DNA from: Acidobacteriota bacterium
GTDB lineage: Bacteria > Acidobacteriota > Vicinamibacteria > Vicinamibacterales > CAVVIG01
Reading direction: 5' to 3'
Assembly: GCA_025463215.1 (NCBI GenBank)
Contig: JAOBWF010000146.1
Coordinates: 1 to 64,000 of the forward strand
DNA length: 64,000 nucleotides
A model generated the notes under the pieces. The model searched no databases. It was not told where the DNA came from and worked only from the letters and a program-made list of their open reading frames with translations. Shown here one piece after another: positions 4,997 to 29,380 of this stretch (position 1 is the first letter of the stretch; each line of letters opens with the position of its first letter). A program made the translations under genes and the position numbers.

Positions 4997-7816
4997 CTAG
5001 AAGAGGAAACGGGCGCTGATCCGGAAGATCCGCGGGGCCGGGATTGCCTCCGCGGTGGCCGCGCCTGTGCCGCTGGGCAGCGGTTTCAGGTAGTTCGGGC
5101 CGTTGGTGTTGACCTGGCTCAGGACGACGTTCGAGTTCAGCATGTTGAAGCCATCGAGCATGCCCTCGATCGAGCGCTTACCCACCTTCACCACTTTGGA
5201 GGCCCGGAGATTCAGCAGCCGCACCGAATCGTACCGGCCGGCATGGCCGTCGACTGTGACGTTGACCAGAGTATTCAACGCGTCGCGCGCCTGCACGACG
5301 CGCGGATAGTATGCGCCGCTCTGCGCGGTATACGTCGCGGAGAGCTTGAGCGCCCACGGCAGTCGGTCGTAGAGGCCACTGAGGTGAAGCTGCTGGTTGG
5401 TTTCAGGCAGCGACCACAGGTACAGGTTCTCGTTCGGATTCTGCGCCGTGTTGTTCTGCCACGTGTGACGATCGAGGGAGTAGGAGATCAGGGCCGACCA
5501 GCCTGTCGAGTACCGTTTGTTGAGCGTCGCCTCGAAAGCCGTGTACCGATCGGTGCGGAGTCCGTTGGTATAGAGGGTGCTCACGACGCCGAAATTCGGA
5601 TACGACCGCGGCACGGAAAAGACATTCACGGTGCTATCGTCGGCCGTGCCGACGATATTGTCGCGTCCCGGATCGACGGCGGTTCGGAGGTCGGTGTAGG
5701 CGGCGTACGGCAGCGCCGTGTTGATGGTCTGACTCAGGTTCGAGTCGGTCTTGCGCACGCCGTTGAGCCGCAGCACGACGTCGCGGCTGAGGCCGAGGTC
5801 GACGCCGCCGGAAAATTCCTCTTCGACGAACGGCTTCGTGTTCGGGTCGATGAGCAGATTACCGGCGCCGCCGGTCACCGACGTCAGATTCGCAGCGACC
5901 GGGACATACGGAATGGTACCGTCCCAGCGCGTGTAGGTCGAGGTCCGGACCGCGGCCGGGTTGACCGAGCCCGCAACCGGACCGCTCGCCGCGGTGATCG
6001 AGGAGCCGGACGCGCCGTAGCGGCCATAGCTGGCCTTGAGCGCGACACGACTGGTCCCGAAGACGTCGTAGATCGCCGACAGCCGCGGCGACCAGGAGTT
6101 ATACGACGGGAAGTCGTGATTTTCGGGATAGAGCAGCTTGGTCGCGAACGGTCCGGTTCCCGGGTTGCCCTGTGCCGGCAGCCACGACGCATAGCGGTCG
6201 AAGCGGATGCCGACGTTCACCGTCAACCGCTGGCGGATCCCGATGTTGTCGTTCAGAAACCAGGAGTTGTACCGGGTGCCGCTATTGGTGCTGTTCGGAT
6301 AGTCCAGCACCTGCACCGAATCCGGGTGCAGGAAATAGTTGGTATCGGTGGTCACGCTCCGGTACTGATAGACCTGCTGATTCGGGTAGCCGGTAAAGTC
6401 GACCAGCGAGGTGCCGCTGTAGCCGAGCGTACCCGACTTGACCTCATGGCTCGCGCCGCGCAGTTCGGTGAACCAGTTCCACGTCCCGTTCCATCCCCAC
6501 CGCACCGGCGTCCGGTCTTGCTGCAGGAACGCGCCGCGCGTCTGGGTCGTCGTCAGATCGACGCGCCGGACATCGGTCGTCCACGGCACGTCTGGCCACC
6601 AGTATCCCGAACGGCTGCCGCTCGCCTCGAGCGTCATCGTCTTGGAAAGGATCTGATTCCAGCGAACGACCGGCCCGATTTGATCGGTACTGTTCTGATT
6701 CTCGGACGCCTCGAGGGTGACGAACGGGCTTGCGCCCCGATACGGCTGATGCTTGCGGCTGATGAGGTCGGACACCTCGAGCTTGCCGTTGCCTGTCGCC
6801 TGATACGTCATCTTGAACGTGCCGCTGTCGATCGTCGTGAAAAACACCGCCTGCTGGCCGGTGCTCTCGCTGACGAACCCGGGAATCAGGAGGCCCGAGT
6901 ACGTCCGCCCGTACGCGCCATAGAACCACAGCTTGTCGTGGACGATCGGACCGCCGAGATCGGCGTGGTAGTCGTTGTACCTGGTGAACTGGTTCGTGCC
7001 CGCCGAGTAGCCGCGGTCGAGCAGCGCCTGATCGACGTTGCTGCCCTGGAACGCGCCCGTCTCGTAGGCGGCGAGATAGGTGCCGTGAAAGGCATTGCTG
7101 CCGGATTTGACCAGGAAGTTCAAGGACAACCCCGGCGTCTGGCCGTCGGCGCCCTTGGCCGCGGTCGCGGCCAGCACCGATTGGTAACTGTCGTAGTCGC
7201 CGAAGTGCTGATCCCACACCGCGCCTTCATAGCGCGCCAGTTCGTCACCGCTGCGGCCGTACGAGTTGGCGCCGGTCGTGGTCGATCCGCCGACGGTATT
7301 GCCGCCGACGTCGAACTGCGTCGAGGTCAGGCCGGGCACCAGCATCGCCAGCCCGCGGATGCCGCGGGCGTATGGCAGATCCTGCAGCTTCTCCTGATCC
7401 CAGTTCGTGGCGATGGTCGTCGCCTTGACATCGATCGCCGGCGTCTGGCTGACGACGGTGACCGATGCCTCGAGACCGGCGACCTCGAGGCGGCCGTTCA
7501 CGGACATCGTGGCGCCGGGCGTGACGGCGACGCGTTCAATCGTCAGGGTGGCGAATCCCGAGAGCGTCAGGGTGACCCGGTATTCGCCCGGGGGCAACAG
7601 CGTGAATTGGTACGCCCCCTGTCCGTCGGTCACCGTGGTCCGCTCGCCGCCGATCATGGCGGGGCTGGTGATTGCCACGGTGACGCCAGGCAGCAGGCCG
7701 CCACTGGCATCGGAGGCGCGACCCGTGATCGTCGCCGTCGTCTGCTGCGCTTCAGCGGTGCACGTCGAGAGCAGCGTCACCAAGATCCATCCAACCAGAC
7801 GTCGCCGTGTTCCCAT
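4997..7816 (-). CDS. TonB-dependent receptor with carboxypeptidase-like regulatory N-terminal domain (Oar-like)
   Basis: MGTRRRLVGWILVTLLSTCTAEAQQTTATITGRASDASGGLLPGVTVAITSPAMIGGERTTVTDGQGAYQFTLLPPGEYRVTLTLSGF..., C-terminal RIFRISARFLF. Confidence 0.9.
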   Translation of the reverse strand: MGTRRRLVGWILVTLLSTCTAEAQQTTATITGRASDASGGLLPGVTVAITSPAMIGGERTTVTDGQGAYQFTLLPPGEYRVTLTLSGFATLTIERVAVTPGATMSVNGRLEVAGLEASVTVVSQTPAIDVKATTIATNWDQEKLQDLPYARGIRGLAMLVPGLTSTQFDVGGNTVGGSTTTGANSYGRSGDELARYEGAVWDQHFGDYDSYQSVLAATAAKGADGQTPGLSLNFLVKSGSNAFHGTYLAAYETGAFQGSNVDQALLDRGYSAGTNQFTRYNDYHADLGGPIVHDKLWFYGAYGRTYSGLLIPGFVSESTGQQAVFFTTIDSGTFKMTYQATGNGKLEVSDLISRKHQPYRGASPFVTLEASENQNSTDQIGPVVRWNQILSKTMTLEASGSRSGYWWPDVPWTTDVRRVDLTTTQTRGAFLQQDRTPVRWGWNGTWNWFTELRGASHEVKSGTLGYSGTSLVDFTGYPNQQVYQYRSVTTDTNYFLHPDSVQVLDYPNSTNSGTRYNSWFLNDNIGIRQRLTVNVGIRFDRYASWLPAQGNPGTGPFATKLLYPENHDFPSYNSWSPRLSAIYDVFGTSRVALKASYGRYGASGSSITAASGPVAGSVNPAAVRTSTYTRWDGTIPYVPVAANLTSVTGGAGNLLIDPNTKPFVEEEFSGGVDLGLSRDVVLRLNGVRKTDSNLSQTINTALPYAAYTDLRTAVDPGRDNIVGTADDSTVNVFSVPRSYPNFGVVSTLYTNGLRTDRYTAFEATLNKRYSTGWSALISYSLDRHTWQNNTAQNPNENLYLWSLPETNQQLHLSGLYDRLPWALKLSATYTAQSGAYYPRVVQARDALNTLVNVTVDGHAGRYDSVRLLNLRASKVVKVGKRSIEGMLDGFNMLNSNVVLSQVNTNGPNYLKPLPSGTGAATAEAIPAPRIFRISARFLF

Positions 7817-18015: not shown

Positions 18016-20718
18016 ATGATTCGACACATTGGGTTCCTTTTTCTGGCAATCGTGTGCGCTCTTCAAAGCGGGCGCGTGAGCCGCGCGTTCGCGCCAGTCG
18101 AGCCAAGACCCGCCGCCGCCGTAACAGCCGGGCTCGTCTTCGAGCGCAATCAAGGACAGGCGCCCGATGCATTTCAGCTGATCGGGAGATCGGGCACGTA
18201 CGACATGGCCTTTGCGCAGGAGTACATCGGGTTGGCGTTCAAGGACATGCATCGCCGGACCGCGTCGGTGTCGCTGGTGTTTCAAGGGGCGGAGACCCCG
18301 ACGATCAGCGCCGAGCGACAGCTCGACGGGTACGTGAACTACATACGGGGCCCACGTCCGAACTCGTGGCTCCGCGGCGTTCCCACGTATGAGCGCGTGC
18401 GGTACGCAGGACTCTACGACGGCATCGACGCCGTCTTCTACGGGTCCGATCGACAGCTCGAATACGATCTCGAAGTCGCCCCTCGTGCGGATCCGACGCG
18501 CATCGCGCTCACGTTCCATGGCGCCGATGCGATCGATCTCGACGCCGATGGCTCCCTGGTCGTCACGACGGGGAACCACACATTCACGCAGCGTTCGCCC
18601 GTGGCATATCAGCAGAGTGGGCAACGCCGGCAGCACGTCGCTGCGTCGTACCGCGTCGAATCGGATCGCGTGACCATTGCGCTCGGACCCTATGATCGCG
18701 AACGGCCCCTCGTGATTGACCCGGTGATCGCCTACGCGACGCTCCTCGGTGGCAGCTCGGGGGATACCGTCAGCGCGATCGCGGCGGACCGCAGCGGTCA
18801 TGCCTTTGTGACCGGCTTCACCTGCTCCGTCGACTTTCCGAACACGCACGCGACCACGAAGCTCCCGAACGAGGACCAGGACGACTGCGATCTGTACGTG
18901 ACGAAGATGGCGGCCGATGGACGATCGTTCATCTACTCGACGATCATCGGCGGCAGTAGCTTCGATCAAGGTGCCTCGATTGCGGTCGATCCGACCGGCG
19001 CCGCCTACGTGACCGGGGCGACTTCCTCAGCCGATTTTCCGACGACCGCCGGCGCGCTCGATGCATCCTGCGGCGAGACCGGCCTGTCCACCCGCTGTCC
19101 GGAGCAGGATGCGTTCGTCATCAAACTCAATCCAGCGGGTTCGGCGCTGGTCTACAGCACCTATCTCGGTGGGGCGCGATCGGATGCCGGACTCGGCATC
19201 GCCGTGAATGCCCGCGGCGCCGCCTTCGTCACGGGATGGACCAGCAGTGCGGACTTTCCCACGACACCGACCGCGTTCAGCCGCAGGTTCCAGGCGAGTG
19301 ACGCTTTCTTGACGATTCTGCTGGCCAACGGCGGCCTCTCCTATTCCACATTGATCGGCGGTCGCAACACCGATCAAGCCACCTCGATCGCGGTTGACGG
19401 CGGTGACAATGCCTACATCGCCGGCTGGACCGGCTCGCCCGATTTCCCCATCAAAGGCGGGTTTCAGAAGACGATGACGTTCGTGAACAACGCCGGTTCG
19501 GAAGGATGGGTCGCAAAGTTCGACGCCCGCGGCGTCCTCGCGTTCTCGAGCTATTTCGGCGGCGACCGAGGGGATATCGTGCAGAGCATCGCCGTCCACT
19601 CGAGCGGCATCTACATCGGCGGCTTGACGACCTCGTCGACCATTCCCGGCGCAACCGCTGGCGGTAGCGATACCAACACCGTCGGTTTCGTCTCGCAGAT
19701 CACCGGCAGCGGTTCCAGACTGATTGCCACGCGCGTCCTCGCCGCGCCGCCCGCGGTCCGGGTGGGAGGCGTCGCCATCAGCGGCGGCGTCGCGCACGTC
19801 GTCGGCGATACTTCTTCCGCCGGAGGTTTTCCGACAACGGCCGATGCCCCTCAGCCCATGAATACGAGAGGCACCGCCGTGTTCTACACGACCTGGCCGA
19901 TCGAGCCGTCGGGTGTGATCGCCAGCCGGCCCAGCTTCTCGACCGTGTTCTCGGGCGGCGGTGCATCGTTTGGCGGCCCGGTGACGAGCGACGCGGCGGG
20001 CGGCGTGTTTCTCGGCGGCTTGTTCTTCCCCCCAGGTTTTCCGTACGTCAATGCCGCGCAGGGCCCGGGCTCGACCGCGGCGCATGATTCGGAGGGGGCC
20101 TTCGTGGCGCATTTCGCGGCGAACGATAAATTCACCAGCACCGACGCACGCGACATCGTCCTGTGGGCAGCGGATGCCACGCGGCTCGAAGGTGATTGGA
20201 CGCTGGCGGCCGATCCCGCCGCCGCCGGCGGTCGCCGGTTGTTCGAGCCGGATCGCGGGCAGGTCAAGGTGACGGCGCCGGCCTCTTCACCGATCGACTA
20301 TGCCGAACTGACATTCACGGCGAACGCGGGCGTGCCGTACCGGCTGTGGATCAGAGCCATGGCCCAGAAGAACTCGTTCAACAACGATTCGGTGTGGGTG
20401 CAGTTTTCCGACAGCGTCGATCAGCATGGCCAGCCGCTATGGCGGATCGGCACCGCGTCGGCGACGCCGATCACGCTCGAGGACTGCACGAACTGCGGGC
20501 TCAGCGGGTGGGGCTGGCAGGACAATGGCTTCGGCGTGAGTGTGCTCGGGCCCGTGGTGCGGTTCGCCGCGTCAGGTCCGCACACCATCCGCATACAGCG
20601 GCGCGAAGATGGCATCTCGATCGATCAGGTCCTGCTGTCCAATAACCGCTACCTCAGTGCCGCGCCCGGCACGCCGAAAGATACGACCATCGTGCTGCCC
20701 AAGACGGTGGTGCCGTAA
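18016..20718 (+). CDS. SBBP-repeat beta-propeller protein
   Basis: Repeated YATLLGGSSGDTVSAIAADRSGHAFVTGFT / YSTYLGGARSDAGLGIAVNARGAAFVTGWTSSADFPTT motifs; N-terminal RNQGQ...VRYAGLYDGIDAVFYGSDRQLEYDLEVAP. Confidence 0.9.
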   Translation: MIRHIGFLFLAIVCALQSGRVSRAFAPVEPRPAAAVTAGLVFERNQGQAPDAFQLIGRSGTYDMAFAQEYIGLAFKDMHRRTASVSLVFQGAETPTISAERQLDGYVNYIRGPRPNSWLRGVPTYERVRYAGLYDGIDAVFYGSDRQLEYDLEVAPRADPTRIALTFHGADAIDLDADGSLVVTTGNHTFTQRSPVAYQQSGQRRQHVAASYRVESDRVTIALGPYDRERPLVIDPVIAYATLLGGSSGDTVSAIAADRSGHAFVTGFTCSVDFPNTHATTKLPNEDQDDCDLYVTKMAADGRSFIYSTIIGGSSFDQGASIAVDPTGAAYVTGATSSADFPTTAGALDASCGETGLSTRCPEQDAFVIKLNPAGSALVYSTYLGGARSDAGLGIAVNARGAAFVTGWTSSADFPTTPTAFSRRFQASDAFLTILLANGGLSYSTLIGGRNTDQATSIAVDGGDNAYIAGWTGSPDFPIKGGFQKTMTFVNNAGSEGWVAKFDARGVLAFSSYFGGDRGDIVQSIAVHSSGIYIGGLTTSSTIPGATAGGSDTNTVGFVSQITGSGSRLIATRVLAAPPAVRVGGVAISGGVAHVVGDTSSAGGFPTTADAPQPMNTRGTAVFYTTWPIEPSGVIASRPSFSTVFSGGGASFGGPVTSDAAGGVFLGGLFFPPGFPYVNAAQGPGSTAAHDSEGAFVAHFAANDKFTSTDARDIVLWAADATRLEGDWTLAADPAAAGGRRLFEPDRGQVKVTAPASSPIDYAELTFTANAGVPYRLWIRAMAQKNSFNNDSVWVQFSDSVDQHGQPLWRIGTASATPITLEDCTNCGLSGWGWQDNGFGVSVLGPVVRFAASGPHTIRIQRREDGISIDQVLLSNNRYLSAAPGTPKDTTIVLPKTVVP

Positions 20719-20852: not shown

Positions 20853-22208
20853 GTGACCGCTGCCGTCGCGATGGGCTTCCTGATTGTTGTCCTGTTTGTT
20901 GCGGCGACGTCGCCGTTATGGGTGGCGGTGACGACCTCCTTCGCTGCGGTGCTCGCCTTCAACTACTTTTTTCTGCCGCCGATCGGAACCCTGACCGTCG
21001 CCGATCCGCAGAACTGGCTGGCGCTGTTCTCGCTTCTGGTGGTCAGCCTCGCGGCCAGCCATCTCTCGGCCGTCGCACGGGCGCGCACGAGCGAGGCGAT
21101 TGCGCGTCGCGACGAGCTCCGCCGCCTGTTCGATCTGAGCCGCGACGTGCTGTTGATCACCGAGCAGCGGGACGCCCACGCGTCGATTGCCAGGTACATT
21201 GCGGCGCGCTTCGAGCTCGATTCGGCGGCGATCTGCCTCCCACAAGGCACCCAATGGACGACGTCGATCGCGGGGGCCACACCAATGTCAGTGGATCCGC
21301 TGGAGCTCTCGGCGGTCTTCCACCGCGCCGCGGATGACCAGGAGCCGGACGCGGCGGCGCAACGGCGCTTCATCCCGCTGCGGCTGGGCGACAAGCCGAT
21401 CGGTGTCCTCGCGGTGGCCGGGCGATCGATTGATCGCGATACGCTGGATGCTGTGGCCGGCGTGGCCGCCCTGGCCATCGACCGTGCCCAGTTTCTCGAC
21501 GATCGGAAAGCCGCGGATCTCGCGCGGCAGAGTGAGGCGTTGAAGTCGGCGCTGCTGGCGTCGCTCGCCCACGATCTGCGAACACCCTTGACGGCGATCC
21601 GGGTTGCCGCGACGAACCTGCAGGCGGCATGGCCGGATGAAAGCGAGCGGCGCGAGCAGAGCGATCTCATCCTGGTCGAGGTCGACCGGTTGACCCGGTT
21701 GTTCCACAACATCCTCGACATGGCCCGCATCGACGCCGGGGCTGTTGCCGAGGAGACCCGCTGGGTCGCGCCATCGGAAATCGTCGCGGCCGCCCGCAGC
21801 AGCGTCGAACCGGCGTTGCGCGGGCGGTCGATCGAGTTCTCCCTGGACTCGGATCGTCTGGTCCGCCTGGATCCGAGGCTGACCGCGGCCGCTCTGTCGC
21901 ACCTGCTCGAGAACGCCGCGCAATATGGGCCGATCCACTCGCCGATCCATGTCACGGCCAGCATCAGCGACCATGGTCTCGCGATCGCGGTTCGCGATCA
22001 CGGTCCGGGGATCCCGAAGCCGGATCTCGCGCACGTGTTCGAGCGCTTCTATCGTGGTGCCAACGTGAAGGATCGCCGTTCGGGTACCGGCATGGGCCTC
22101 GCGATTGCCCGGGGCATGCTCGCGGTGGAGCGCGGCCGGCTGTTCGCCGAGAACTGCGCCGACGGCGGGGCGCGGTTCACCATCGACGTCCCGGCGGAGG
22201 TCAAGTGA
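20853..22208 (+). CDS. Sensor histidine kinase, short KdpD-like (DUF4118-like TM, GAF-like, HisKA, HATPase)
   Basis: FAAVLAFNYFFLPPIGTLTVADPQNWLALFSLLVVSLAASHL; SLAHDLRTPLTAIRVAATNL; RDHGPGIPKPDLAHVFERFYRG. Lacks the N-terminal KdpD/USP region. Confidence 0.88.
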   Translation: MTAAVAMGFLIVVLFVAATSPLWVAVTTSFAAVLAFNYFFLPPIGTLTVADPQNWLALFSLLVVSLAASHLSAVARARTSEAIARRDELRRLFDLSRDVLLITEQRDAHASIARYIAARFELDSAAICLPQGTQWTTSIAGATPMSVDPLELSAVFHRAADDQEPDAAAQRRFIPLRLGDKPIGVLAVAGRSIDRDTLDAVAGVAALAIDRAQFLDDRKAADLARQSEALKSALLASLAHDLRTPLTAIRVAATNLQAAWPDESERREQSDLILVEVDRLTRLFHNILDMARIDAGAVAEETRWVAPSEIVAAARSSVEPALRGRSIEFSLDSDRLVRLDPRLTAAALSHLLENAAQYGPIHSPIHVTASISDHGLAIAVRDHGPGIPKPDLAHVFERFYRGANVKDRRSGTGMGLAIARGMLAVERGRLFAENCADGGARFTIDVPAEVK

Positions 22209-22906
22209 CGCGAACCTCGCGCATCCTGCTGGTCGATGATGACGTGTCAATCCAGCGAGCGGTGGCGCCGCTGCTGCGTTCACGCGGCTACCATGTCGAC
22301 GTCGCCTGCACCGGCGGCGAGGCGGTCGACGCCGTCGTCGCCACGCCGCCGGATCTCATCGTGCTCGATCTTGGCTTGCCGGATCTTGAGGGCGAAGAAG
22401 TGTGCCGGCGGATCCGGGCCCACACGCGGGCGCCGGTCATCATCCTCTCGGCCAGGAGCGGGGAAACGGACAAAGTCGCAGCACTGGACATCGGCGCCGA
22501 CGACTACGTGACCAAGCCGTTCGGTCCGGAGGAACTGCTGGCGCGGATCCGCGTGGCGTTGCGCCGGCTCGCCGAGGCGGGGCAACCAGTCGCCGAACGC
22601 GTGACCGTCGGTGATATCACGATTGATTTCGCTCGCCACCGGGTCGTGCGCGCCGATGAGGATATCCGGCTGACGCCGAAGGAATTCGATCTGCTGGCGC
22701 TGCTGGCGCGCAACGCCGATCGCGTCCTCACCCATCGCGCGATCCTGCAGGCAATCTGGGGCGGCAACGCGGTCGATCAACCCGAGCATCTGTGGGTGCT
22801 GATGGGGCAGCTACGCAAGAAGATCGAGCCGGACCCGGCGACGCCGCGCTACCTGCTCAGTGAGCCCTGGGTCGGCTATCGCCTGGTCTCTTCAGGAACT
22901 CTTTAG
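22205..22906 (+). CDS. kdpE: OmpR-family response regulator, KdpE-like
   Basis: RILLVDDDVSIQRAVAPLLRSRGYHVDVA...LIVLDLGLPDLEGEEVCRRIRAHTRAPVIILSARSGETDKVAALDIGADDYVTKPFGPEELLARIRVALRR; 4-bp overlap with the kinase gene. Confidence 0.85.
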   Translation: MTRTSRILLVDDDVSIQRAVAPLLRSRGYHVDVACTGGEAVDAVVATPPDLIVLDLGLPDLEGEEVCRRIRAHTRAPVIILSARSGETDKVAALDIGADDYVTKPFGPEELLARIRVALRRLAEAGQPVAERVTVGDITIDFARHRVVRADEDIRLTPKEFDLLALLARNADRVLTHRAILQAIWGGNAVDQPEHLWVLMGQLRKKIEPDPATPRYLLSEPWVGYRLVSSGTL

Positions 22907-22951: not shown

Positions 22952-25900
22952 ATGAGCACCTCCTCGACCCGCGTCGTCGTCGTCACCTCGGTGATGTTGT
23001 CGTTCATCTCGTTCTGGCGTGCCGCCGCGATCGTGCTGAACGATCTGGGGTCCTCGGCGTATTACGTCGGCGGCATCGCCGAACAGGCCGTCGGGCCCGC
23101 ATCGGCATGGTTCGTCCTCGGCGTCATGCTGTTCTCGTATGCCGTCCGCGCCGTTTACGTCGAATCCTGCGCGATGTTCACGCGCGGCGGCGTGTACCGC
23201 GTCGTCAAGGAGGCGATGGGCGGCACGCTGGCGAAGCTGTCGGTGTCGGCGCTGATGTTCGACTACATCCTGACCGGTCCGATCTCCGGCGTCTCTGCGG
23301 GGCAATACATCGTCGGCCTGGCCGCCCAGACGGCGACCTACTTCGGCTACCCCTGGGCTCCTTCGACGACGGTCGTCAACGGCCTGGCCGCCGCGATCGC
23401 TGCATCGATTACGGTCTACTTCTGGCGCCGCAACACGCGCGGCATTCACGAGTCGTCCGACGATGCGCTGAAGATCATGTATGTGACGACGGTGATGGTC
23501 GTCATGCTGATCGGCTGGGCGGGCCTGACGATCCTGACGCAGCCGGCCGCGCAGCGGCTGCCGCCCGCGCCGATCGTCAGTCACCTGATCTTCAACGCCG
23601 ACGCAGTCGGGTGGATGCCGAAGTTGATCCCGCAGTGGCTGCGAGGCTCACCGGCTGACGGATACGTCTTTGTCCGGAATCCTGGCGCGCTGCTTGGCCT
23701 GATCGGCATCCTGATGGCGTTCGGTCACTCATTTCTGGCCATGTCCGGGGAAGAATCGCTCGCCCAGGTGAACCGAGAGCTGGAGTACCCGAAGCATCGC
23801 AACCTGATGAAGGCGGGAATGGTGATCTTCGTCTACTCGCTGCTCTTCACCTCGGTGGTCTCGTTTTTCGCGTATGCGCTGATCCCCGACGCGGTTCGGC
23901 CGCAGTATTTCAACAATCTGATCAGCGGCATCTCGATCTACCTGATCGGCCCGATGCCTGCGAAGCTGGTGTTTCAGGGCTTCATCGTCATCGTCGGATT
24001 TCTGATGTTGGCGGGCGCCATCAACACTTCGATTATCGGTTCGAACGGCGTCCTCAACCGCGTGTCCGAAGACGGTGTGATGACCGACTGGTTCCGAGCG
24101 CCTCACCGGCGGTTCGGCACGACCCACCGGATGATCAACCTCGTCGTCGTCCTGCAGCTGGCGGCGATCATCGGCTCACGCGGCAACACCTACACTCTCG
24201 GCGAAGCGTACGCGTTCGGCGTGATCTGGTCATTCGCGTTCAAAGGGCTTGCGATGCTGGTGCTGCGGTTCAAGGATCGCTCCCCGCGGCAGTGGAAGGT
24301 GCCGTTCAACCTGCGCGTGGCCGACATGGAGGTCCCGATCGGCCTGGCGGTGATCGCGGTCATTCTGTTCTCGATCGCGGTCATCAACCTGCTGACCAAG
24401 GATGTGGCAACCGTCAGCGGCGTCGCCTTCACGCTGGTGTTCTTCGTGGTGTTCGTCGTCTCGGAGCGGATCAACGAGCGCAAGCGCGGTGACCAGGCGC
24501 ACGTCGAAGTCGACCAGTTCCGGATCCAGCCGCGTGAGATCATCTCCGCTGAGACGGTGGACGTCCGGCCGGGCAGCGCGCTCTGCGTCGTGCGCGACTA
24601 CACGACACTCGGGCAGGTCCGGGCGGCGCTCGACGCCACTCATACCGGAAAACGCGATCTGGTGGTGATGACCGTGCAGCTGATGCACGGCCCAGACGCG
24701 GGCTACGAAGGCATCTCCCAGGAGCAGCTGTTCACGCGGTACGAGCAGGTGTTGTTCTCTCGCGTGACCGCCGTCGCCGAACACGCAGGCAAGCACGTCG
24801 ACCTGCTCGTCGTGCCCGGCGCGAACCTCTATGACGCGATCGCGCAGACCGCCGCGCATCTCGACTCCGCCGACATCTGGGCCGGCCGGTCGTCAGCGAT
24901 CGAGGCGGCCGAACAGGCGCGGCGGATTGGCGAGGCATGGGAGCGGCTACCGAAAAAGCCGAATCGTCCGGTCGCCTTGCATATTGTCGATGCCGAAGGC
25001 TCGGCGGAGGTATTCCCGCTTGGCGCCCATGTTCCGGCCTTGGCGGAGACAGACGTGGCGTTGATCCACGCCCTGTGGCTCGATGCGATAGGGGAGACCG
25101 GGGTCGAGAGCCTGCATCACCAGGAAGTCATCTCGGTGGCGCTCGCGCGGCTCGCGGAAGACATGCAGGGCGCCGGCCGGGCGGCAACGCTCGAGCGGAT
25201 GCGCCGGCTGCAGCGCCGCAGCATCGCTGTCGTGGTGGCCTGCCTGGTGATGACGGCGGCCGCAGCCGCCCAGGAGACCGAGCCGCCGCCAACACCTGAA
25301 CCATTCGCCTTCGCCGACTTCACCTGGCTCACCGGCAATCCACGAACGAAAGAATCGCCGCTCGCCTCAACGGCGTTCACCGGCGAGTTTCGCGCCGACA
25401 CCAACGTCACCTACTCGTTCAATCATCCGCAGGACGATACGATCTCCGGTTCAAGCGAGGTGTTCCGATCCGGCGAGGTGCAGCTTACGCAGCTCGGAAT
25501 CGGCGGCGACTTCCATGTCGACAACGTGCGCGGCCGTCTGATGACGCAGTTCGGCATGTACGCGCAGACGACCCCGCGCAACGACGCCAGCGCCGCGAGA
25601 GGGCAGTGGCAGCTGAATGATGCCTATCGCTACGTGTCGGAGGCTTTCGGCGGCTACCACTGGAATGCGCTGCACGGGGTCAACCTCGACGCCGGCCTCT
25701 TCATGTCCTACATCGGTCTGTACAGCTATTACCAGTTCGACAACTGGTCATACCAGCCGTCGTATGTGTCCTCGAACACGCCGTGGTTCTTCAACGGCGT
25801 CAGAATCCAGATCTTCCCGAGCGACAAGCTCAAGATCGAACCGTGGATCGTCAACGGCTGGCAGTCGTACGGCAAGTTCAACCACGCGCCCGGCCTCGGC

Positions 25901-26530
25901 GGCCAGATCCTGTGGCGGCCGACCGGGCGGCTGTCGCTGGTGGCGAATAACTATTGGGGCACCGATACGGCCGGCAATCCCGATCGGAAGCGCCTGCATA
26001 GCGACGACAGCATTCAGGTGAAATACCGCGACGCACCCGACCGGCGCGTGTCGAAGGCGGCGGTGTCGCTGACCGTCGATGCCGGCTGTGAACGCGGTGG
26101 CGGCGTCACCTGCGGATCGCAATTCTTCGTCGGCTTTATGGCCTATCATCGCCTCTGGTTCGACGCGGATCGCTTCGCCGTGACAATTGGCGGAGGCGCC
26201 ATCCACAACCCCGGGCGCTATCTCGTGCTGATCCCACCAGTCAACGGCGCCAACGCCGTCTCGGGTACGCCGTACTTCACCGCAAATCCTGGCGATCCCT
26301 TCGCCGCGTGGGACGCGTCGATCACCTGGGACTACATGCCCAGCCAGTTCGTCACGTTCCGCCTCGAAGGGAATTATCGCGCCGCGACCGTGCCGTACTT
26401 TTCCGGCAGTGGTGGGGTAACCCCGCCTGGCGGCAACACCGGGGCACCCGGATCGATGGTGCAGGGGTGGGCACCGGACCTTCGCAAATCTGAACACCGT
26501 GTGACCGCGGCGGTGCTCGTCAAGATGTGA
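22952..26530 (+). CDS. 1192-aa continuous ORF: APC-superfamily permease with soluble C-terminal domain (about aa 1-749) followed in frame by signal-peptide-bearing outer-membrane beta-barrel (BBP2/DUF1597-like, about aa 750-1192)
   Basis: N-part: LSFISFWRAAAIVLNDLGSSAYYVGGIAEQAVG... multi-TM permease; C-part: MRRLQRRSIAVVVACLVMTAAAAAQETE then ...FTGEFRADTNVTYSFNHPQDDTISGSSEVFRSGEVQLTQLGIGGDF...WFFNGVRIQIFPSDKLKIEPWIVNGWQSYGKFN. No stop codon between them. Confidence 0.85.
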   Translation: MSTSSTRVVVVTSVMLSFISFWRAAAIVLNDLGSSAYYVGGIAEQAVGPASAWFVLGVMLFSYAVRAVYVESCAMFTRGGVYRVVKEAMGGTLAKLSVSALMFDYILTGPISGVSAGQYIVGLAAQTATYFGYPWAPSTTVVNGLAAAIAASITVYFWRRNTRGIHESSDDALKIMYVTTVMVVMLIGWAGLTILTQPAAQRLPPAPIVSHLIFNADAVGWMPKLIPQWLRGSPADGYVFVRNPGALLGLIGILMAFGHSFLAMSGEESLAQVNRELEYPKHRNLMKAGMVIFVYSLLFTSVVSFFAYALIPDAVRPQYFNNLISGISIYLIGPMPAKLVFQGFIVIVGFLMLAGAINTSIIGSNGVLNRVSEDGVMTDWFRAPHRRFGTTHRMINLVVVLQLAAIIGSRGNTYTLGEAYAFGVIWSFAFKGLAMLVLRFKDRSPRQWKVPFNLRVADMEVPIGLAVIAVILFSIAVINLLTKDVATVSGVAFTLVFFVVFVVSERINERKRGDQAHVEVDQFRIQPREIISAETVDVRPGSALCVVRDYTTLGQVRAALDATHTGKRDLVVMTVQLMHGPDAGYEGISQEQLFTRYEQVLFSRVTAVAEHAGKHVDLLVVPGANLYDAIAQTAAHLDSADIWAGRSSAIEAAEQARRIGEAWERLPKKPNRPVALHIVDAEGSAEVFPLGAHVPALAETDVALIHALWLDAIGETGVESLHHQEVISVALARLAEDMQGAGRAATLERMRRLQRRSIAVVVACLVMTAAAAAQETEPPPTPEPFAFADFTWLTGNPRTKESPLASTAFTGEFRADTNVTYSFNHPQDDTISGSSEVFRSGEVQLTQLGIGGDFHVDNVRGRLMTQFGMYAQTTPRNDASAARGQWQLNDAYRYVSEAFGGYHWNALHGVNLDAGLFMSYIGLYSYYQFDNWSYQPSYVSSNTPWFFNGVRIQIFPSDKLKIEPWIVNGWQSYGKFNHAPGLGGQILWRPTGRLSLVANNYWGTDTAGNPDRKRLHSDDSIQVKYRDAPDRRVSKAAVSLTVDAGCERGGGVTCGSQFFVGFMAYHRLWFDADRFAVTIGGGAIHNPGRYLVLIPPVNGANAVSGTPYFTANPGDPFAAWDASITWDYMPSQFVTFRLEGNYRAATVPYFSGSGGVTPPGGNTGAPGSMVQGWAPDLRKSEHRVTAAVLVKM
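25199..26530 (+). other. Possible internal translation start for the outer-membrane beta-barrel portion
   Basis: In-frame ATG (codon 750 of the 22952 ORF) followed by an Arg-rich n-region, hydrophobic stretch and AAAAAQ signal-peptidase-like site; no strong SD upstream. Confidence 0.5.
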
Positions 26531-26699: not shown

Positions 26700-27482
26700 C
26701 TAGAGTCTGAGAAACCGCTCGCGAATGATTCGTGACTGCAGGCGGCTGACTTGCAGTGTCTGTCCGTTCGACAGCAGCGCGACGTGCGTGCCACCGGGCA
26801 TCGCATTCACCTTCGTGATCAGATCGATGTTGGCCAGCGTACCGCGACCGAGTCTGATAAAGCGTGCCGGATCCAGTCTGGCCTCGAGATCCTTCAACCG
26901 ATAGGTAATCGCGTGCCGCTCGTTCTTGATGGTCGACACATACAGGATCTCGCCTTCAGCGACGATTGACGCGATCTGCGTTACCGGGATGATGATGATT
27001 TCGTCGCGGCGCCGGACGGGGATCCGCTCGAGATACGGCCGTCTGGCCGACGACTCGTAGGTCGCAATCGCGTCAGTGAGGCGCGTGCCATGTTCCGCCA
27101 CGATCTCGGCGTGCTCGACCCGTTCCTGCGCCCGGTTCAGTGTCTCCCGAAGGCGGCGTTTGTCGACCGGTTTCAGGAGGTAGTCGACCGCATTGATCTC
27201 GAACGCGCGTACCGCGTACTCGTCGTACGCGGTGACGAACGCAATCAGCGGCATGTCGTGCTTCGTCAGCATCTGAACCACACCGATGCCATCCAGTTCC
27301 GGCATCTGCAGATCGAGCAAGGCCAGGTCGGGACGTTCCCGTTCGATCGCCGCGACCGCCTCTTCGCCCGACTGCGCCTCCGCGACGACGACGACGTCTT
27401 CGAACGAGTGGAGCAGTGCCGCGAGAAACGATCGCGCCGGGCGCTCGTCGTCGGCGATGACGATCCGCAGGCGTGCATTCAT
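26700..27482 (-). CDS. LytTR-family response regulator
   Basis: LRIVIADDERPARSFLAALLHSFEDVVVVAEAQSGEEAVAAI...LLDLQMPELDGIGVV; C-terminal LytTR domain (LYVSTIKNERHAITYRLKDLEARLDPARFIRLGRGTLANIDLI). Confidence 0.93.
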   Translation of the reverse strand: MNARLRIVIADDERPARSFLAALLHSFEDVVVVAEAQSGEEAVAAIERERPDLALLDLQMPELDGIGVVQMLTKHDMPLIAFVTAYDEYAVRAFEINAVDYLLKPVDKRRLRETLNRAQERVEHAEIVAEHGTRLTDAIATYESSARRPYLERIPVRRRDEIIIIPVTQIASIVAEGEILYVSTIKNERHAITYRLKDLEARLDPARFIRLGRGTLANIDLITKVNAMPGGTHVALLSNGQTLQVSRLQSRIIRERFLRL

Positions 27483-29380
27483 GACGTACTCGTGGTCGCG
27501 AGCGCCGCAACGCGGCGGAAGTCGGCCGGCAGGCGAATCTCTACAGAGGTGCCGTCGACTGGACTGCTCGTGATTGACAGGCTCGCCGCGGCTCCGTAAT
27601 GGCAGGCGAGACGTCGCTCGACATTGGCCAGGCCGACCCCGACCGCCCGCCCGCGGCTGAGTTCGCCGGAGGTGACGCCCGGGCCGGTGTCGTGCACCAC
27701 GAGCACGAGCGCGGAATGCGGCAGCGATAAGTCCAGGCGCGCGGTCACGGTGACCTCTCCGCCGCGTAACCGGGATGAGATTCCGTGTTTGACGGCATTC
27801 TCGACGACCGGCTGCAGCAGCAGCGGTGGCACACGCAAGTCCTTGAGGGCCTGCGGGACATCGATCGCGATCCGCAGGCGTTGCTCGAATCGCGCGTGCT
27901 CGATGTCCAGGTACGATTCGATGAGTTCCACCTCGCGTCCGAGCGTCGTCAACTCACCGTCGGAGCGGAAGACGCTGCGCAGCAGCCCGGTCAGGCGCAT
28001 CAGCGTGTCGAAGGCTCGCGGCGGCGCCGTCTGAATGAGGTAGCCGATGGTCGTCAGGGCATTGAACAGAAAATGCGGATTGATCTGCGCGCGCAGAGCC
28101 CGCAGTTCGGCTTCCGTCGCGAGCTTGCCGATTTCCTGTTCGCGCATCTCGCGTGCATAGCGTTCGCGCGCCAATCGAATGGCGTCGATGCGGCGGCCGA
28201 CAAGCGACGTCACCGCTTCGATTGCCGCATGGTCGTCAGAGAGGAGCCGCCGCCCGCCAATCAGATCGCCGATCTCCAGCCGGTAATGTGGCGGTTCGGC
28301 GACTGCGATGTCCACCACGGTAGTGACGTTCGGCATCGGCCCATGGGGATCGCGGGCCGGGCCGGCTGCGTGCTCTCGCCAGCTCACGGCTCGGGCGCTG
28401 AGCGCGGGAGCCAGCCGCCCGCACACATCGTCGAGTAAAACCGCGATGTCTTGATGAAGCTGGATGCGAGTGCCGATCTCCGCTCGCAATCGGAGGTAAT
28501 CGGGCCGGTTGAGGACGATGCTATCGACGAACCATCCGACGCCGTTGCGGATCGCCGGATAGAGCAGTGCCGTGCCGACCCAGAACGTGACGAGGACGCC
28601 GACGTCCCGGGGGTCGCGGAGGGGCACCTCCGGTGAATGGATCGCGCCGATCGCCGCGACGCCCAGGAGCGCCGCGCTGACAAGGGCGAGAAGCGTCAAC
28701 GCGCGTTTCAGGAAAATGTCGGCCAGCGCGAATGGGAAGTCCTGGTAGAGGATGGCGAGCGCAAGCGGCAGCGACGCGTGATGTCCGAGCAACTCGATCG
28801 GCCAGGACGCATCGCCTCTGTGCAACTGGCTCAAGTGCAGCGCCGATACCGCAAAGATTGAGAGTGCAGCCGCCCAGAGCGCACGGCGTGCGCCGGCCTG
28901 CCGCCGGGTCACGGCGGCGAGCGGGATGACCAGCGCGATAAATGAGTACGTCAGCAGGCGCATGCCGAAGGGCGACGGCAGGGGCGCGCCCGACCATGCC
29001 GCGCCGACATGAAAGCCTGCCGCGATCGTGCTGACGAAATACGCGGTCGCGGCGACGAACTGCCTGCCCGTGCCGCGGACGCGAGTGCTATCACGCTCGT
29101 CGCGAAGCACCGAGTGAACGACCACAGCGGGCAGAAACCCAAGCGCCGAAAACCCCGCCGCGACCAGAAGCGTGAACGGCCCCGCAATGCCGACTTTCGG
29201 CAGTTCGTACGCAGGCAAGGCACACAGATTCCAGATCAGGCCAAGCAGCGCGGTACTCAGCAAAAGCGGGTCGATGCGCGACCCTTGGCTGGCACGGCCC
29301 GCCCGGGCGACCATCGCCAGCAGCATCGCGTACAGGACCACGCCGGTGATCAAGCAGACCAGGTTCAGCAGTTCGCCCAT
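27479..29380 (-). CDS. LytS-like sensor histidine kinase (His_kinase family)
   Basis: ELRALRAQINPHFLFNALTTIGYLIQT; N-terminal multi-TM; 4-bp overlap with the LytTR gene. Confidence 0.9.
   Translation of the reverse strand: MGELLNLVCLITGVVLYAMLLAMVARAGRASQGSRIDPLLLSTALLGLIWNLCALPAYELPKVGIAGPFTLLVAAGFSALGFLPAVVVHSVLRDERDSTRVRGTGRQFVAATAYFVSTIAAGFHVGAAWSGAPLPSPFGMRLLTYSFIALVIPLAAVTRRQAGARRALWAAALSIFAVSALHLSQLHRGDASWPIELLGHHASLPLALAILYQDFPFALADIFLKRALTLLALVSAALLGVAAIGAIHSPEVPLRDPRDVGVLVTFWVGTALLYPAIRNGVGWFVDSIVLNRPDYLRLRAEIGTRIQLHQDIAVLLDDVCGRLAPALSARAVSWREHAAGPARDPHGPMPNVTTVVDIAVAEPPHYRLEIGDLIGGRRLLSDDHAAIEAVTSLVGRRIDAIRLARERYAREMREQEIGKLATEAELRALRAQINPHFLFNALTTIGYLIQTAPPRAFDTLMRLTGLLRSVFRSDGELTTLGREVELIESYLDIEHARFEQRLRIAIDVPQALKDLRVPPLLLQPVVENAVKHGISSRLRGGEVTVTARLDLSLPHSALVLVVHDTGPGVTSGELSRGRAVGVGLANVERRLACHYGAAASLSITSSPVDGTSVEIRLPADFRRVAALATTSTS

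Follow-up and report, generated by a model that had tools for sequence, protein, structure and literature searches.

A single open reading frame joining a permease to a BBP2 porin through an internal signal peptide in an Acidobacteriota genome

Results

An uninterrupted reading frame and its neighbourhood

The window (the whole 64,000-nucleotide stretch of Acidobacteriota DNA that was analysed) carries an ORF in which a permease is followed in frame by a signal peptide and a porin. The features of the locus are as follows.

20853-22208, + strand: DUF4118-HisKA sensor kinase, KdpD-like C-terminal part, upstream of the ORF (Pfam)
22205-22906, + strand: OmpR/KdpE-type response regulator, upstream of the ORF (Pfam Response_reg and Trans_reg_C)
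22952-26530, + strand: single 1192-codon ORF, permease, internal signal peptide and porin (ORF reading, Pfam)
22952-24493, + strand: residues 1-514, 12-TM permease core, AA_permease_2/KimA-like (Pfam, AF2, PDB fold match)
24494-25198, + strand: residues 515-749, cytosolic alpha/beta C-terminal domain and helical tail (AF2 secondary structure, invariant H722 H723, tail alignment)
25199-25270, + strand: residues 750-773, internal Sec signal peptide, predicted cut A773/Q774 (sequence, hydrophobicity)
25376-26527, + strand: residues 809-1192, BBP2/OmpL-like 16-strand beta-barrel porin (Pfam, relatives, model)

A preliminary description had claimed 1192 stop-free codons at this position, and the frame indeed starts with ATG and encodes 1192 aa without an internal stop. 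The proposed union of a permease with a beta-barrel was confirmed by Pfam, which places AA_permease_2 and BBP2 in one ORF. The soluble C-terminal domain ascribed to the permease appears as an alpha/beta domain in the AlphaFold2 (AF2) model, and codon 750 (25199) is, as described, an ATG opening MRRLQRRSIAVVVACLVMTAAAAAQ, a Sec signal by its sequence. NCBIfam gave no match, and an IMG/VR scan returned no relatives.

GC content by codon position is coding-like through residues 691-830, that is, across the joint. The dN/dS ratio is about 0.12-0.3 in the permease half and the porin half alike (permease half versus G019, G005 and G164: dN 0.09-0.24, dS 0.8-0.9; porin half versus G023 and G055: dN 0.15-0.16, dS 0.9-1.0). 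By these values both halves are constrained genes whose products are maintained under purifying selection, which argues that the open continuity is not that of a chance open frame.

With a sensor kinase and a KdpE-type regulator upstream, the unit containing the fusion ORF looks like a two-component-regulated ion-uptake cluster. Elsewhere in the window, 18016-20718 encodes a protein of 900 aa that looks secreted and has DUF7948 and SBBP beta-propeller repeats. A LytTR regulator is paired with a His_kinase at 26700-29380, on the minus strand and facing the fusion ORF in convergent orientation.

The permease half

Pfam matches AA_permease_2 at residues 19-500 (E 8e-43), a score that exceeds the cut-off by far. 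Modelled by AF2 from 40 sequences (mean pLDDT 83), residues 1-757 display 12 long membrane helices by our own count, then the alpha/beta domain and a helical tail; the pair H722 H723 is invariant among permease homologs. The best PDB fold match (Foldseek) is KimA (8b70/6s3k; E 7e-15, probability 1.0), the K+ importer of B. subtilis, with the cation-chloride cotransporters next among solved structures. In both, as in the window permease, a 12-TM APC-type fold precedes a cytosolic alpha/beta domain, but identity in the fold alignment is just 16-18%, and the window permease has a longer C-terminal domain and is joined to a porin. Hence the fold of KimA/KUP-like transporters, cytosolic domain included, was found (AF2, Foldseek), while sequence similarity to solved members was not (phmmer of the permease against PDB, no match at E <= 0.01); we therefore call the protein KimA-like in fold and do not assign it as KimA. 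Judging by the modelled fold, its substrate is presumably a potassium-type cation.

Permease homologs of 33% identity continue in frame into an entire MgtE Mg2+ transporter (MgtE_N, CBS and MgtE) in eight genomes, at L015 1465-5022 (G018), L028 145-4248 (G019) and also in L016, L017, L018, L029, L030 and L047. These open frames of ~1180 aa were considered as porin fusions and rejected, the added half being MgtE. The extension is constant at 469 aa in seven of the eight genomes, and the permease half had no Pfam match at E 1e-3 in the two that were scanned. Permease-MgtE fusions stem from the same bacterial family and extend the same permease family in frame past the same tail; the added half, however, is an inner-membrane Mg2+ transporter without signal peptide or topology problem.

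The porin half

The BBP2 porin family (PF07642) matches residues 816-1154 (E 1e-40, 140 bits versus a curated cut-off of 26.2), and the porin half is 64-80% identical to 35 relatives. Its model has 16 strands at low confidence (mean pLDDT 61) and matches general porins; by sequence, the comparison with PDB yielded a single spurious match (E 0.59). The full-length PF07642 match, the even-stranded barrel of the model and a cleavable Sec signal, read from the sequence, are shared with BBP2/OmpL-like porins. In contrast to ordinary members of that group, the window porin lacks a stop ahead of its signal peptide and has a permease in frame upstream.

The continuous ORF alone would permit an uncut trans-envelope protein in which inner-membrane permease and outer-membrane porin are tied together physically. 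Such a protein is highly improbable: the stretch from the cut site to the first barrel strand has just ~35 residues, perhaps 12 nm when fully extended and too short for the usual periplasm, a clean AAA/Q signal peptidase site is present, and permease and porin are separate genes in all relatives.

The joint and the internal signal

The signal comprises an n-region RRLQRR, a hydrophobic core of 17 residues (2.64 KD over 15) and the AAA/Q site. Stand-alone permease homologs stop 31-77 aa past the HH motif; in the window, M750 follows this motif after 28 aa and the hydrophobic core begins after 35, and no spacer remains. The window tail GAGRAATLERMRRLQRR aligns with stand-alone tails such as GARRDEAVNRLRRQMRP-stop. 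In a same-family tail profile, 17 window-tail residues score well above shuffles (p = 0.0006), and the seven residues from Met750 onward alone are not significant (p = 0.2). From these alignments, the conserved permease tail reaches the signal's n-region with its charged residues, or overlaps it by a few codons, with no intergenic DNA left. This n-region either closes the permease tail or is where the porin itself begins.

Ahead of ATG 25199 lies a modest SD-like GAGCGG, whose anti-SD pairing (-4.8 kcal/mol) is stronger than that at 84% of internal ATGs; this ATG is a possible internal start, used instead of or besides the precursor. These features would suit a stop codon lost naturally from between two tightly coupled genes, after which the porin would still be made from ATG 25199 and read-through from the permease would be incidental and near neutral. 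A single substitution at E748 (GAG/TAG) would suffice, and the spacing between M750 and the hydrophobic core is about that seen for the start Met of the stand-alone G023 porin (MKTFTSPIAIAL...). However, the permease would then have ended at most 28 aa past HH, and no relative with a sequenced stop has fewer than 31; the SD falls short of that at the G023 porin (-4.8 versus -8.0), and no promoter-like site was found ahead of 25199. We consider this course of events unlikely. An Rfam scan around the locus gave no match.

Search for the joint in relatives

Homologues with the same in-frame junction, whose search the preliminary description had proposed, were sought in overlapping sets of 27 family, 162 order and 193 class genomes and a phylum sample of 396 genomes. 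Permease and porin are common there, yet never form one ORF, nor do they in any of 42 porin loci from a GTDB scan. Where the two genes lie close together, in L049/G055 and G043, they are divergently oriented. A stop before the signal in relatives had been named at the outset as evidence against the joint, and every homolog with a sequenced 3' end has one, so the fusion is not conserved. On present data it appears private to this genome.

Two sets of candidates were rejected: a 1218-aa frame (G383:C121), whose extra length lies upstream and which has no porin downstream, and porin relatives from other Acidobacteriota with long open frames, which in those examined contain a signal and a coiled coil but no permease.

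The contigs of the closest orthologs, G019 (80-84%) and G005 (81-87%), end before the joint, and the orthologs of G014, G013 and G022:C562 also meet contig edges inside the permease. Five orthologous permease genes from different MAGs (L003, L026, L025, L014 and L027) run off contig ends, two of them after chimeric-looking ends. Because the orthologous contigs of G019, G005, G014, G013 and G022 all end in this gene, the region seems to assemble badly. The source is a single MAG (87.9% complete, 7.19% contaminated), the sole genome with a permease-porin fusion among those searched. An assembly, sequencing or strain-mixture artefact would account for both observations, the true chromosome then having a stop, and perhaps a spacer, between two ordinary genes. 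But a random misjoin would rarely bring two homologies together in frame while leaving tail and signal complete and the coding bias continuous, and similar in-frame joints occur in three other genera (see below). An artefact has, in our estimate, a minor share of the probability, about equal to that of a stop loss with internal initiation.

In G022, the frame of a C262-type permease paralog closes with ...DRLKR-TAG. No more than ~50 nt downstream lies a remnant of the same porin with an internal deletion, and after it a dUTPase gene. This order, a stop and then the porin remnant, suggests that separate tandem permease and porin genes are the likely ancestral state. The remnant lies in L117 (G022:C399), near 5300-5520, between the paralog and the dUTPase gene, versus the window's own genome, where paralog C262 is directly followed by the dUTPase gene.

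In-frame joints of a cytosolic domain with a porin

Downstream of another permease of the family, G017 has a 516-aa ORF in which a USP-like cytosolic domain is followed by the internal signal GRRIALGAAAALAILLSCAHVVFAQ and then by a BBP2 porin; the label USP-like is our own reading of the sequence pattern, for which Pfam has no match. The same architecture occurs in G023, 61% identical to the G017 ORF over its whole length, and, more distantly related, in G011, so that three other genera of the window's family have such ORFs. Their positions are:

L110 1307-2857, - strand: USP-like domain, signal and BBP2 porin in one ORF
L031 8312-9880, + strand: USP-like domain, signal and BBP2 porin in one ORF
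L186 from 1501, + strand: USP-like domain, signal and BBP2 porin in one ORF

In G008, G043 and G085, the USP-like gene ends with a stop ahead of the porin. G017 and G011 have no ATG between USP domain and signal, just GTG codons ~13 residues or more upstream, and in G023 an ATG at the signal would leave a short signal without positive charge. The GTG codons could be starts, and the USP-signal-porin ORFs are accordingly not proof of a precursor. Like the window ORF, these ORFs (G017:C99, G023:C104 and G011:C152) combine a cytosolic domain, an internal signal and a BBP2 porin in frame, in the same family and in ion-transport clusters. They differ in that the partner is a ~150-aa soluble domain and not a permease, and their porins are just ~25-30% alike to the window porin. 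Such joints in three other genera lower the chance of an error at the window joint.

Discussion

We tentatively favour, at close to an even chance, a real in-frame gene fusion whose translation product would be a precursor processed by signal peptidase I. Each half is complete and under constraint, and the coding periodicity carries on over the joint. The permease tail fits stand-alone relatives up to the n-region, the tandem order seems ancestral from the G022 paralog, and the USP-signal-porin ORFs of G017, G023 and G011 offer a parallel. On the other side, the joint comes from one MAG, appears in no homolog with a sequenced 3' end, lies beyond the contig ends of the closest orthologs, and has a tail match that loses significance from Met750 onward. 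We infer both the authenticity of the joint and cleavage of the precursor by signal peptidase. That the joint is real is probable; about two thirds of this belief goes to a cut precursor and the rest to internal initiation with a lost stop. Of the three options first offered, the signal-peptidase polyprotein thus gains support from the analogs in three genera, a lost stop with an internal start keeps that smaller share, and a sequence error retains some probability as the closest orthologs end before the joint.

FbcH of Bradyrhizobium japonicum, a cytochrome b/c1 polyprotein whose internal signal is cut by signal peptidase, is a precedent for the principle. As in FbcH, an inner-membrane multi-TM protein, an internal signal with an AxA site and an exported domain follow each other in one ORF. 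However, both FbcH products belong to one inner-membrane complex, while the second product of the window ORF is an outer-membrane barrel, and conservation of the fusion among orthologs was not found in class or phylum, the closest orthologs ending at contig edges.

For the cut precursor we envisage the following course. An ancestral tandem pair, a KimA-like cation permease and then a BBP2 porin, would have lost the stop and the spacer between them, and the ribosome would read the whole ORF as one precursor. The permease would insert in the inner membrane with its C-terminal domain in the cytosol; 12 membrane helices put its C-terminus there, so the N-in orientation of the internal signal fits. 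Residues 750-773 would act as an internal start-transfer signal, with RRLQRR inside and the hydrophobic core across the membrane. A cut by signal peptidase I near A773/Q774 would free the porin, which would pass to the periplasm and on to the Bam machinery, and the permease would stay in the inner membrane with a short membrane-anchored tail. Part of the porin may also start at ATG 25199.

More broadly, porins of ion-uptake clusters in this family might repeatedly be made as the C-terminal part of precursors with a cytosolic or inner-membrane N-terminal partner, the internal signal yielding equal amounts of permease and porin from a two-membrane polyprotein; this generalization, drawn from the window and its analogs, we hold to be rather doubtful.

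If the joint were an error, the locus would hold two ordinary genes. The recurring USP-signal-porin ORFs make the polyprotein idea testable beyond one MAG. If real, the fusion would, to our knowledge, be a bacterial polyprotein whose products go to two different membranes. It would then be a test of whether the outer-membrane assembly pathway can be fed by an internal signal placed deep in a multi-TM protein, and permease and porin would be supplied at a fixed 1:1 ratio for one substrate route.
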